The translations under genes and the position numbers were made by a program. From NCBI GenBank assembly GCA_944326635.1, contig CALVEU010000008.1:1-32582 (forward strand): a stretch of 32,582 nucleotides of DNA, written 5' to 3'. Shown here one piece after another: positions 27,801 through 32,582 of this stretch (its first letter is position 1; each line of letters starts with the position of its first letter). The stretch comes from Candidatus Gastranaerophilales bacterium (GTDB lineage: Bacteria; Cyanobacteriota; Vampirovibrionia; Gastranaerophilales; Gastranaerophilaceae). The notes under the pieces were generated by a model. That model made no database searches and was not told the DNA's origin. It saw nothing but the letters and a program-made list of their open reading frames with translations.

Positions 27801-28192
27801 GGGGACGTTTTGGATTTGACAGGATGTTCGGTTGAGATGAATTGCGAGTCCGAGCGCTGTTCTCGGTCATCAACGAGCAAACTAAATTAAATGCTAACAA
27901 CGTAATTAAAGCAGACTTCTCTAGAGCTCAAGCTTTAGCAGCATAGTCGCTAATTATAGCTACTCATATTACCCAGCTTGCCGGTGATATGGGTCCATCC
28001 TGCAAGCGGCAGTGCATCAATGACGGTAGATGCATCAAGATAACCGTTAAAGGTTAGTGTTTCCGCAAAAAACACTTTGGATTATAACAAAGGTTATGAT
28101 ATTCCCTGCATAATCCGAGAGAATTAATATCTACACTCGTAGAAGTTTATCAAGATCCATTTTGGACAGGGGTTCGACTCCCCTCGTCTCCA
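27801..28192 (+). ncRNA. ssrA: tmRNA (one-piece)
   Basis: tmRNA rescues stalled ribosomes and tags the unfinished protein for degradation. The 5' GGGGACG pairs with 3' CGTCTCC to make the tRNA-like acceptor, with discriminator A at 28192 and CCA not encoded. The T arm is CAGGG-GTTCGACT-CCCTC-like. The 5' end continues TTTTGGATTTGACAGGATG as in other tmRNAs. The tag reading frame starts at GCT, 27893, and ends at TAG, 27944-27946, giving ANNVIKADFSRAQALAA, whose ALAA end suits ClpXP recognition. It is a single continuous RNA, not the permuted two-piece form found in some cyanobacteria. Accessory genes lie just downstream. Confidence 0.96.
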
Positions 28193-28278
28193 GTTTTTAG
28201 TCCATAGGACAACGATTAGACCAAAATCTATACGGCTAAAGCCTGCTATTATCGGACTTTATAACAACAAAAAACAAA

Positions 28279-28414: not shown

Positions 28415-29395
28415 ATGTCAAGAATGCGTACTTGTGGTTCAGTTAAAATACAATTAATTAAAAAGTCTAGAGAAGCTGCATTATCTGCGGTACAAATATT
28501 TAATAATCCAAACATTTTATTTAAATCTGAAACTTATATTGTTTTAATGATTATTGCTTGGACATACTTATTACATGCTTACTTTAAAGATAAGCATATA
28601 GATTATAGATATATTGACAAAAATAAATCAATGGGAAAAAGAAAGTTTTACCAAGTTAGAGATGGAGATTATTTATATTGGGATTTATCGAAATGTTTAA
28701 ATTTTGAACAATGCCCATTAAGCAATGATTGTAAGAATAATTTAAAATTTTTAATTGGTTTGAGAAATAAAATTGAACATAAAATGGCTGGAGAACTAGA
28801 TGATGCATTAAGTGCAAGATTTCAAGCTTGTTGTTTAAATTATAATAAATATATAACTGAAATATTTGGAGAAAAATATGCAATTGATAAGTATTTATCG
28901 TTCTCTTTACAATTTTCAAAACTAAATAAAGAACAAAGAGAACTAATTGAAGATTATAAATTACCTGAAACAATTGAAACATATATTAAAACTTTTGATG
29001 CAGGTTTAACTGAAGAAGAGTTTAATAGTGAAGAATATGCAACAAGATATTTATTTGTACCTAAAACTGCAAATAGACCTGGTCAAGCTGATAGAGTTAT
29101 TGAATTTGTTAAAGAAGATTCCGAATTAGCTGTAGGCTTAAATAAAGAATATGTTTTAATTAAAGAAGCGGAAAAAACAAAATATCTAGCTGGACAAATT
29201 GTAAAATTAATGAAAGAAAAAGGGTTTTCAAAATTTAGTATGCATAAACATACAGAATTGTGGAAGAAATGTGATGCAAAAAATCCTAAGTATGGCAATG
29301 GAGGGTTAGTTGCCGGAAAACATTGGTATTGGTACAAAAAATGGGTAGATTTTGTTGAAAAACATTGTAACGAAAATAAAGAAATTTATTGCTAG
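28415..29395 (+). CDS. DUF3644-like protein
   Basis: The 326-residue protein opens with VKIQLIKKSREAALSAVQIF and NNPNILFKSETYIVLMIIAW, as in DUF3644 proteins. These have a HEPN-like alpha-helical look and often occur in genomic islands near restriction and other defence genes. A conserved patch, LKFLIGLRNKIEHKM, contains an R-N-K-I-E-H sequence close to the RxxxxH/RNxxxH motif of HEPN ribonucleases. The second half has a possible winged-helix-like region (GQIVKLMKEKGFSKFSMHKH) and ends with WYWYKKWVDFVEKHC. GGTGA precedes the ATG. The stop overlaps the recombinase gene end by four bases. Function is inferred only. Confidence 0.7.
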   Translation: MSRMRTCGSVKIQLIKKSREAALSAVQIFNNPNILFKSETYIVLMIIAWTYLLHAYFKDKHIDYRYIDKNKSMGKRKFYQVRDGDYLYWDLSKCLNFEQCPLSNDCKNNLKFLIGLRNKIEHKMAGELDDALSARFQACCLNYNKYITEIFGEKYAIDKYLSFSLQFSKLNKEQRELIEDYKLPETIETYIKTFDAGLTEEEFNSEEYATRYLFVPKTANRPGQADRVIEFVKEDSELAVGLNKEYVLIKEAEKTKYLAGQIVKLMKEKGFSKFSMHKHTELWKKCDAKNPKYGNGGLVAGKHWYWYKKWVDFVEKHCNENKEIYC

Positions 29396-31008
29396 AATTT
29401 ATATTTTTCTATCAATTTATTTAAACTCAAATCTTTGCTTTGAGTTCCGGTTAAAATTTGTTCAGTTAATTCCGGTGAAATATATTTCAAATTTAAAATG
29501 TTTCGAATATATTTTGAGTCCTTTAAGCCTTCTTCTGTTTGTAAATCGTCAATAGTTTTGCCGTTTCTTATTTGCTTGTGGTAGTAGTAACTTTTAACAA
29601 TTGCATTTACAAGATACGGATTTGGCTCAGGAGTATTATATTCTTTTGCGTTCAAAATTAAAATATTATCATTTCGTGATGGCTGTGTGATTTTTATTTT
29701 TTTAGTAATCGTAATCGGGTTAAATTTTTCATTTCTATCAGGGACAATAATTTTTTGGTTACTAGTCAACGCATTCAATACATTTATCAAAGAATTTGCA
29801 TTTATTGTAATTTCGATTGAGTTTTTGGATATAATAATTTTATGAATAATAGCTCTGATTAGCTTCGGCTCTGAGTAATCTTTAATATTCTGTGCCGTAT
29901 AAATAAGTTTGTTTTGTTTACTAACTTTAAAATCTTTTACAAGTCTTTGAGTCTGTTCTTTATCTTGTAAAAATTCTTTTGTTGTTTCGACTACAAATTT
30001 TTCAACTTCGCCTGCGGGGATTTTTGAAATTGTACCAACTTCGCTGTCATTGTAATTTTTTAAAGCAGTGCTAACATAATATCTGTACCGCCTTTTGTGG
30101 CTATTACTGTGGCTTGGTGTCATCAAATTATTTTTATCATCAAAAATCAAACCTGCAAGCAACGAATTTGAAGAACATTTTGTTCCACAGGTTTTGTCTA
30201 CTTTGTTTTCATATAAAAGTTTTTGAACTTCTTCAAAAATTACCTCAGAAATAATTGCATCATGTTCACCCTCATAAACTTTATCTTTATGTGTGATTTT
30301 TCCGATATAAACCTTATTAACAAGTAAATGATATAATTGACCTTTTGAAAAATTTTTGTCAATTCGTGTTTTAATTTCATTTTCTTTTAGATATTGCATC
30401 AATTTTGGTACACTTTTTAATTCAAGATATTTGTTAAAAATCATCCGAACTTTTTTGGATTCTTCTTCGTAAATAATAAGTTTTTTGTCTTCTTTTTTGT
30501 AACCTAGCGGAACTTTCCCACCCATCCACATTCCTTTTTTCTTGGATGCCGCGATTTTATCTCTAATTCTTTCACCCGTAACTTCACGTTCAAATTGGGC
30601 GAAAGATAAGAGAATGTTGAGGGTCAGTCTTCCCATTGACGTTGTTGTATTAAATTGTTGGGTTATTGATACAAAAGAAGTTTCATGCCTGTCAAATACA
30701 TCAATAATCTTTGAAAAATCCATCAACGAACGGGTTAAACGGTCAACTTTATAAACAACTACAATATCTATTTTATTATTTTCAATATCCCTCAAAAGTT
30801 CTTTAAAGGCAGGTCTTTCCATTGTACCACCTGAAAAACCTCCATCATTATACTGTTTATCAACAAGAATCCATCCCTCGTGCATTTGAGATTTTATATA
30901 AGCTTCGCAAGCTTCACGCTGTGCATCAAGTGAGTTAAAATCCTGTTCTAAACCTTCTTCAGAGGATTTTCTTGTGTAAATAGCACATCTTATTAGTTTC
31001 TTATCCAT
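29392..31008 (-). CDS. Large serine recombinase
   Basis: The 538-residue site-specific recombinase has a resolvase/invertase catalytic domain starting IRCAIYTRKSSEEGLEQDFN, with the nucleophile probably S15. VYKVDRLTRSLMDFSKIIDV and LLSFAQFEREVTGERIRDKI contain the conserved arginines. A recombinase domain (GYKKEDKKLIIYEEESKKV through VPKLMQYLKENEIKTR) follows, then a region where a zinc ribbon normally lies. Here that region (LLAGLIFDDKNNLMTPSHSN) lacks the cysteine pairs. The C-terminus has an HTH-like piece, KYIRNILNLKYISPELTEQI. This form with DUF2924 upstream is common in alphaproteobacterial prophage-like elements. Its ATG overlaps the DUF2924 stop by eight bases. Confidence 0.93.
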   Translation of the reverse strand: MDKKLIRCAIYTRKSSEEGLEQDFNSLDAQREACEAYIKSQMHEGWILVDKQYNDGGFSGGTMERPAFKELLRDIENNKIDIVVVYKVDRLTRSLMDFSKIIDVFDRHETSFVSITQQFNTTTSMGRLTLNILLSFAQFEREVTGERIRDKIAASKKKGMWMGGKVPLGYKKEDKKLIIYEEESKKVRMIFNKYLELKSVPKLMQYLKENEIKTRIDKNFSKGQLYHLLVNKVYIGKITHKDKVYEGEHDAIISEVIFEEVQKLLYENKVDKTCGTKCSSNSLLAGLIFDDKNNLMTPSHSNSHKRRYRYYVSTALKNYNDSEVGTISKIPAGEVEKFVVETTKEFLQDKEQTQRLVKDFKVSKQNKLIYTAQNIKDYSEPKLIRAIIHKIIISKNSIEITINANSLINVLNALTSNQKIIVPDRNEKFNPITITKKIKITQPSRNDNILILNAKEYNTPEPNPYLVNAIVKSYYYHKQIRNGKTIDDLQTEEGLKDSKYIRNILNLKYISPELTEQILTGTQSKDLSLNKLIEKYKF

Positions 31009-31465
31009 TGGCTACCCCGAAGAATTTCTTCCCATTCCAATGCGTTCCAGTTATAACATTAGCAACAGCTGAAAGAGTTTTGTAAATTTTGCCTTTGAAA
31101 TTAAATCCACCTTCAACTGCCATAACTTCATATTTTTCACCTTTAAACTCACGAATAAATTTTGTTCCAATTGTTACTTCAAACTTTTTGAGCTTTTTGA
31201 TATTAATATTCTTTGTCTTTTCATAATTATTAACAAGATTATTTATCTGATTTTGTAACTTACTTGGTAATTTATTATATTGATAATACCAAGTAAGCTC
31301 TTTAACCAAATATGATTTAGTGTAACCTTTTGGTGCGGGCATTTTAAATATTTCTTGCCATTTATTTTTAAGTTCTTTGGTAGTTAAAGATTTTAAATTA
31401 CCCATACTTACATTAGTTGCTCTTATTGCAGATAAAATCAAGCCTATTGACACAAATGTTATCAT
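31001..31465 (-). CDS. DUF2924 family protein
   Basis: This family is typically found immediately upstream of large serine recombinases, and its role is not established. The signature is visible: LTTKELKNKWQEIF near the start, then LPSKLQNQINNLVNN, GTKFIREFKGEKYEVMAVEG, and the conserved end YKTLSAVANVITGTHWNGKK followed by FFGVANG. Two starts are possible. The ATG at 31465 overlaps the stop of the 48-residue gene as TAATG, arguing for coupled translation. The ATG at 31405 begins closer to the usual family N-terminus, and the 20 extra residues (ITFVSIGLILSAIRATNVS) are hydrophobic. The gene overlaps the recombinase start, so the three form one translation unit. Confidence 0.85.
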   Translation of the reverse strand: MITFVSIGLILSAIRATNVSMGNLKSLTTKELKNKWQEIFKMPAPKGYTKSYLVKELTWYYQYNKLPSKLQNQINNLVNNYEKTKNINIKKLKKFEVTIGTKFIREFKGEKYEVMAVEGGFNFKGKIYKTLSAVANVITGTHWNGKKFFGVANG

Positions 31466-31611
31466 TAAAGCTCAATAAAATAGCCATCTTCCTGGTCTGG
31501 TCTTGTTATTAATATGTACTTATTGTAGATTCTTACATCTGCAGTTTTATTTTCAGGATCTAAATTTTGCACCTCAGTAAGTACACCAATAAGTTCTTCT
31601 AAATTCGCCAT
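31465..31611 (-). CDS. 48-residue acidic protein at the head of the recombinase operon
   Basis: This short gene encodes MANLEELIGVLTEVQNLDPE, then about 28 more residues ending QEDGYFIEL and a TAA. It has a clear AAAGGAT ribosome site at good spacing, and its stop is shared with the DUF2924 start as TAATG. I do not recognise the family. The position, directly before DUF2924 and the recombinase, suggests a small accessory such as a directionality or regulatory factor, but that is inference. Its net charge is negative, so direct DNA binding is not favoured. Confidence 0.75.
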   Translation of the reverse strand: MANLEELIGVLTEVQNLDPENKTADVRIYNKYILITRPDQEDGYFIEL

Positions 31612-31661: not shown

Positions 31662-31709
31662 AATATCAAGTGTAAGAATACATTTTGTATCATTAACAGA
31701 AACAAAAAT

Positions 31710-32447
31710 TTATTTTTTAAGACGTAAAACATCTTTATCGAAATCAGGTGGTAAAGTTTTGTAAGTTTTATCTTTATCTTCTAAATAAAGAGTTTCTTTT
31801 CTTTGAAATTCTCTTAATTCTTCAATATTAACTTCGCCAATCAAAATATTATCATCTCCACCTTTTATATTTAAAATAGTCATTTCATCTGATTTCTTAG
31901 GTGCAATAATTTTACTATCTCCAAACTGAGATGTGTTAACCTGTATAACATAACAATGTAAATCTCTAGCGGCTGCTTCAGTGATATTAGTAAAATATTT
32001 AATATCTCTATTCCATTCACAACCAATTATAAAATCAACTTTTGATTTAAATTCAGATCTAAAATTTATATCTGCTAATTCAAAACAATCATAAACCGCA
32101 AAATGTAAATTATTCCATACAAATAAAATATTTTTTGTTTGGTTAGCACCTTCAGGAACATTTAATTTATGTTTTTTTATTTCTTTTTCTTCTCCAGGTG
32201 CATACCATTTTTTCAATCTAAATGTAATATAACAATCATTCTTATATCCATATTTAAATGGAAGTAATGTTACAATATAATTTTGTGCGACTTTTGAATC
32301 TGTGTCAATTATATGTTTTAAACCACAAATAATTGCAACATTATGTTTTTTTGAAAAATCAGAAAGCAAACCTAGCCATTGAATAGGTACAGAAACTTCA
32401 GGAAAAACTATAATATTTGCTTTAGATTCATTGGTTTGAATCGACAT
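31710..32447 (-). CDS. Nitrilase-superfamily (C-N hydrolase) domain protein, possibly the broken or split C-terminus of a larger gene
   Basis: The 245 residues show the nitrilase fold with all three catalytic positions. The glutamate is in NIIVFPEVSVP (E17), the lysine in FRLKKWYAPGEEKEI (K79 or K80), and the cysteine in LHFAVYDCFELADINFR (C121). The reading frame stays open upstream for 32 more residues with plausible protein sequence (ending FKDLQKLIKFLN) and then meets a TAA at 32544-32546. None of those codons is ATG, GTG or TTG. The ATG at 32447 would cut into the first helix of the domain and has no ribosome site. The protein is therefore likely the tail of a gene interrupted by a stop or frameshift, or one read from an unusual start. 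UG1/DRT1 defence reverse transcriptases carry such a C-terminal domain. Confidence 0.7.
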   Translation of the reverse strand: MSIQTNESKANIIVFPEVSVPIQWLGLLSDFSKKHNVAIICGLKHIIDTDSKVAQNYIVTLLPFKYGYKNDCYITFRLKKWYAPGEEKEIKKHKLNVPEGANQTKNILFVWNNLHFAVYDCFELADINFRSEFKSKVDFIIGCEWNRDIKYFTNITEAAARDLHCYVIQVNTSQFGDSKIIAPKKSDEMTILNIKGGDDNILIGEVNIEELREFQRKETLYLEDKDKTYKTLPPDFDKDVLRLKK

Positions 32448-32582
32448 ATTTAAAAATTTTATAAGTTTTTGTAAATCTTTAAATCCAGCGTTTAAATTTC
32501 CTTCAAGATGTTTGTTTATATCCGGATCATTTTCTTTTGTATTTTATTTTCCTTTTCTTATCTTAGACTATTCTATTGTTTT
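32448..32582. other. Window edge upstream of the nitrilase-like gene
   Basis: On the minus strand all three frames contain a stop within this stretch: TAA at 32544 in the nitrilase frame, and TAG or TAA in the others. It does not show a continuous long gene leading into the nitrilase domain, and any partner gene would lie further upstream, outside the window. An AGGAAAA-like ribosome site sits near 32550 but no good start codon follows in the nitrilase frame. Confidence 0.6.

Follow-up and report, generated by a model that had tools for sequence, protein, structure and literature searches.

A nitrilase frame at a contig end as the probable 3′ quarter of a UG5-nitrilase reverse transcriptase gene

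Our analysis covered one stretch of DNA, hereafter the window, of 32,582 nucleotides from a Candidatus Gastranaerophilales bacterium. The window is an entire contig of its genome assembly (C8), and base 32582 is an assembly end. At that end lies a nitrilase-like frame that we assign, with a probability of roughly 0.92, to a UG5-nitrilase gene, a defence-associated reverse transcriptase (DRT) of class 3. It would be the 3′-terminal quarter of that gene, the rest of which is missing because the contig stops at 32582. For the same reason, no gene upstream of the frame can be read. What is established here comprises the family, the catalytic residues and the lid-motif spacing of the frame, the fused architecture of its relatives and its mobile setting. 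Whether an ordinary family member or a remnant, it is a piece of a defence gene of known type; being a truncated copy from an established defence family, it carries little weight on its own. The features at this end of the window are as follows.

31710..32543, minus strand: 277-residue open frame for the nitrilase domain that ends a UG5-nitrilase reverse transcriptase
32523..32582, minus strand: contig-terminal 60 bases, with in-register homology to the gene interior at 52% identity
32544..32546, minus strand: in-frame TAA, falling on the Y of the conserved strand GLYNTKV and closing the frame upstream
32568..32570, minus strand: second in-frame TAG, upstream of the TAA
32397..32399, minus strand: catalytic Glu E49 in an FPE motif (alignment column E50)
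32211..32213, minus strand: catalytic Lys K111 in an RLK motif (alignment column K110)
32190..32192, minus strand: second active-site Glu E118 (alignment column E117)
32085..32087, minus strand: nucleophile Cys C153 in YDCFELAD (alignment column C156, aligned with C1116 of DRT1)
31740..31760, minus strand: C-terminal K-x-x-P-x-x-F, spaced like K1219/P1222/F1225 in the lid region of DRT1

The frame occupies 32543-31713 on the minus strand, followed by its own stop codon (31710-31712). An earlier note, made from the letters of the window, had described it as nitrilase-like, with E, K and C in their expected motifs; the frame is real, and every feature so described is present. The same holds for the upstream stop (TAA, 32544-32546) and for the lack of a usable start, since neither ATG, GTG nor TTG occurs in this frame between that TAA and the ATG at 32447. 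The first domain helix (FKDLQKLIKFLN) does begin before this ATG, as does the first strand preceding it (GLYNTKV in relatives), and the ATG itself sits inside the nitrilase domain. Translation of the assembled sequence from that ATG would omit this strand and helix from the nitrilase fold, and the product is expected to be inactive. The frame being interrupted as assembled (TAG at 32568, TAA at 32544; possibly contig-end errors), we file it as a fragment of a UG5-nitrilase member and not as a working one.

The earlier note suggested that the frame may be the tail of a DRT1-like defence gene and proposed a profile search against the C-terminal domains of UG1 and UG5, two of the UG classes that Mestre et al. 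2022 reportedly define. With PADLOC profiles, RT_UG5-nitrilase was the best match by far (E 2.9e-90, 302 bits, positions 644-892 of 907, for the 277-residue frame). The next different family, RTasNitrilase (E 1.3e-38, 131 bits), has a related nitrilase domain but models a separate RT-associated protein, whereas the window provides no start codon for one. Drt1a scored 58 bits (E 7.9e-17) on the same frame. By these profiles, the frame encodes the nitrilase end of a UG5-nitrilase reverse transcriptase and not that of DRT1/UG1: the earlier proposal was right that the C-terminal nitrilase comes from a defence reverse transcriptase and wrong about its class. Co-occurrence of UG5 and nitrilase has been published (PMC8934634), in agreement with this assignment. 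With UG5-nitrilase reverse transcriptases, a DRT group, the window shares its best profile match and the same catalytic residues, and their domain order is the same in all intact relatives; it differs in comprising only the C-terminal quarter and in carrying two stops at the contig end.

All four active-site residues—E49, K111, E118, and C153—are invariant in the seven aligned sequences, and the K-x-x-P-x-x-F motif is likewise common to all seven. The sole sequence match in the PDB was DRT1 (9yfd), whose C1116 pairs with C153. DRT1 (UG1; PDB 9YFD, PMC13275509) thus resembles the window in its C-terminal nitrilase, the aligned cysteine, and the K-x-x-P-x-x-F spacing, but by profile belongs to a separate family (58 vs 302 bits). 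Mutation of C1116 in DRT1 is reported to have abolished immunity; residues 1218-1221 are described as sitting over the active site, and the K1219A and A1223F substitutions as destroying protection (PMC13275509). The similarity between the UG5-nitrilase motif and the DRT1 lid is a lead, and we keep it at that level because the C-terminal alignment to DRT1 is of modest certainty; it would make the DRT1 lid model testable in a second family. AlphaFold models had low pLDDT (48 for the domain, 37 for the full-length protein) and were therefore not used for detail. At the level of the fold, Foldseek with the low-confidence domain model returned nitrilase-superfamily structures as all of its top matches.

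Relatives place the domain within a larger gene. Of 288 genomes from the window's bacterial family, nine carry it, counting the window's own, and the fused family genes show 41-62% identity in the nitrilase domain. Of the other eight copies, seven lie in stop-free open frames of 989-1087 residues, and that of G053 is truncated at the start of its contig. Where the gene is intact in this family, it is a single fusion of about 1000-1090 residues, with a reverse transcriptase carrying a YVDD motif upstream of the nitrilase, and matches the UG5-nitrilase profile over nearly its full length; one example is a 1064-residue gene at L015:7634-10828. The same fusion is seen in plasmid relatives from Sinorhizobium, E. 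coli, and Leptospira, some of them annotated as reverse transcriptase domain proteins. In the nearest relative, L017 (CALVRI010000055.1; 90% DNA identity over 31705-32522), the reverse transcriptase lies upstream in one frame. The missing reverse transcriptase half is absent elsewhere in the window's assembly, so the fused state of this particular gene is deduced from its relatives. Searches of viral contigs, with a single query or an alignment, and of phage records returned no relatives.

Several copies have peculiarities of their own. L017 carries a frame change in an A run, and its contig is binned as an uncultured Bacilli bacterium, which points either to a transfer across phyla or to misbinning. 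An isolated nitrilase remnant of this family with an internal TAA is found in another genome (G307; locus L062, 6769-7350), preceded by a kinase-like fragment and no reverse transcriptase. The G053 copy (L016, 1-72) is cut by 72 foreign bases with a hairpin at the contig start—possibly the end of an insertion sequence, and present in a single copy in that assembly. Three genomes (L059-L061) share a distinct UG5-nitrilase lineage of 1011 residues, flanked by a RhuM-like PDC-S23 gene and a gene for a 420-residue protein. Neighbours vary among the loci compared, and no constant partner gene of UG5-nitrilase was seen.

The two stops fall in the contig-terminal 60 bases, which align to L017 in frame and ungapped, matching it at 31 of 60 positions. 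No shuffle out of 5000 reached this similarity; the homology of these bases to the interior of a fused gene is therefore real, and chance similarity is ruled out. Taken together, the comparisons suggest that the stops reflect a contig-end error or local decay and not a split gene. Of these two, the former is slightly ahead, with about an even chance that the organism carries an intact gene and that the stops arose by error at the tip of the contig. Differences from L017 cluster in the final 60 bases, where identity falls to 52% from the 90% further in, and 20 of 29 of them are towards A, as against 24 of 73 in the body of the frame (Fisher p 0.0016). The A content of this tip (62%) exceeds that of all 19 other contig ends examined (maximum 48%). 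Silent and replacement sites are both disturbed there, and the silent ones are saturated, which is beyond what loss of selection alone would give. In the body, by contrast, dN is 0.053 and dS 0.333 (dN/dS about 0.16 over 254 codons), which argues that the gene was constrained until recently. Two points weigh against an error: identity declines gradually, over about 120 bases, instead of dropping at once, and L017, the sequence compared, comes from another genome. Somewhat short of even, yet substantial, is the probability of a real pseudogene, a copy that mutations have disrupted within a prophage or island undergoing decay. Other copies do look broken, by the A-run frame change of L017, the remnant in G307, and the foreign sequence in G053. 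However, most of the domain in the window is under constraint with its catalytic residues all kept, and the differences cluster at the contig end.

Two further readings treat the nitrilase as a protein in its own right, and both are far less probable. That it belongs to a split system, like the PADLOC RTasNitrilase, is very unlikely: a model for separate RT-associated nitrilases exists and does match (E 1.3e-38), but it reaches 131 bits to the 302 of the fused-gene model, the domain has no start codon ahead of it, the available ATG is internal, and the bases upstream align with the interior of the fused gene. No intact stand-alone nitrilase copy was present among the genomes searched. More improbable still is a split class 3 DRT whose nitrilase would be translated apart by way of a non-standard start or stop read-through. 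The earlier note had entertained both a split version, with transferase and nitrilase as separate proteins, and a new nitrilase-based system; the former finds no support where intact relatives are fused single genes, and neither does the latter, the relatives being fused and the bases upstream of the stops aligning in frame with a fused-gene interior. A stand-alone metabolic amidase or nitrilase, which the earlier note had named as one outcome that would overturn its proposal, has a negligible probability. The fold and catalytic residues of a nitrilase are present, but Pfam CN_hydrolase reached 16.7 bits, under its cut-off of 23.2, NCBIfam profiles gave no match to the frame, and the close relatives are fusions to reverse transcriptases; family searches thus refute this candidate.

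For the UG5-nitrilase gene of which the window holds the end, DRT1 offers a model, and it is from DRT1 that we infer both mechanism and defence function. As a class 3 DRT, the gene would encode a single polypeptide that starts with a reverse transcriptase and ends with a nitrilase effector. By analogy with what is reported for DRT1 (PMC13275509), the product of an intact gene would carry out template-free DNA synthesis primed on itself and assemble via its nitrilase domains, with a C-terminal lid over the active site; on infection, nitrilase activity would be released against an essential small molecule, resulting in abortive infection. The priming residue of DRT1, Ser402, is described as not conserved in other class 3 DRTs, and the same report also tested proteins named DRT5S and DRT5L, which may or may not be UG5 members (PMC13275509). 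In the papers covered, no UG5-nitrilase with experimentally tested defence activity was found.

The surroundings of the fragment are most readily interpreted as those of a prophage family whose defence cargo varies. The neighbouring features of the window are listed here.

27801..28192, plus strand: ssrA (tmRNA), at whose 3′ end the element begins
28415..29395, plus strand: DUF3644 protein (HEPN family) with the Rx4H motif RNKIEH; PADLOC PDC-S19, E 2e-142
29392..31008, minus strand: large serine recombinase, phage integrase family PHROG 95
31001..31465, minus strand: DUF2924 protein, PHROG 11806
31465..31611, minus strand: 48-residue ORF between the nitrilase tail and the DUF2924 gene, with a similar ORF in the same place on contig C24

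The DUF3644 protein (28415..29395) and recombinase (29392..31008) are thus confirmed as the island neighbours that the earlier note had pointed out. Among the same-genus genomes that were compared in detail, most lose homology to the window at 28192-28197. One genome (G207) has the same ssrA junction and a recombinase and DUF2924 region 81% identical to that of the window, beyond which lie terminase and ParB/methyltransferase genes; in another (G094), an intact UG5-nitrilase gene adjoins such a recombinase. A second att copy of the ssrA end was sought in the window's genome, where only the ssrA copy itself was found, and the far end of the element was not located. DUF3644, a HEPN family (PMC3710099), is the first cargo gene after ssrA, and G207 has an HNH protein in the same place.

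Three recombinase modules are present in the window's genome (in the window, on C24, and on C29), and these gut bacteria appear to host a serine-recombinase prophage family that carries varied defence genes beside the recombinase. On C24 (L094, 3015-6083), a recombinase/DUF2924 module has a KAP NTPase fragment (PDC-S20) in place of the nitrilase tail. The module on C29 (L113, 3211-16796) has a recombinase/DUF2924 pair of the same type as that of the window; its recombinase is flanked on one side by genes for two cytosine methyltransferases, an HNH protein, and a DrmD-like SNF2 helicase, and on the opposite side by those for ParB and terminase.
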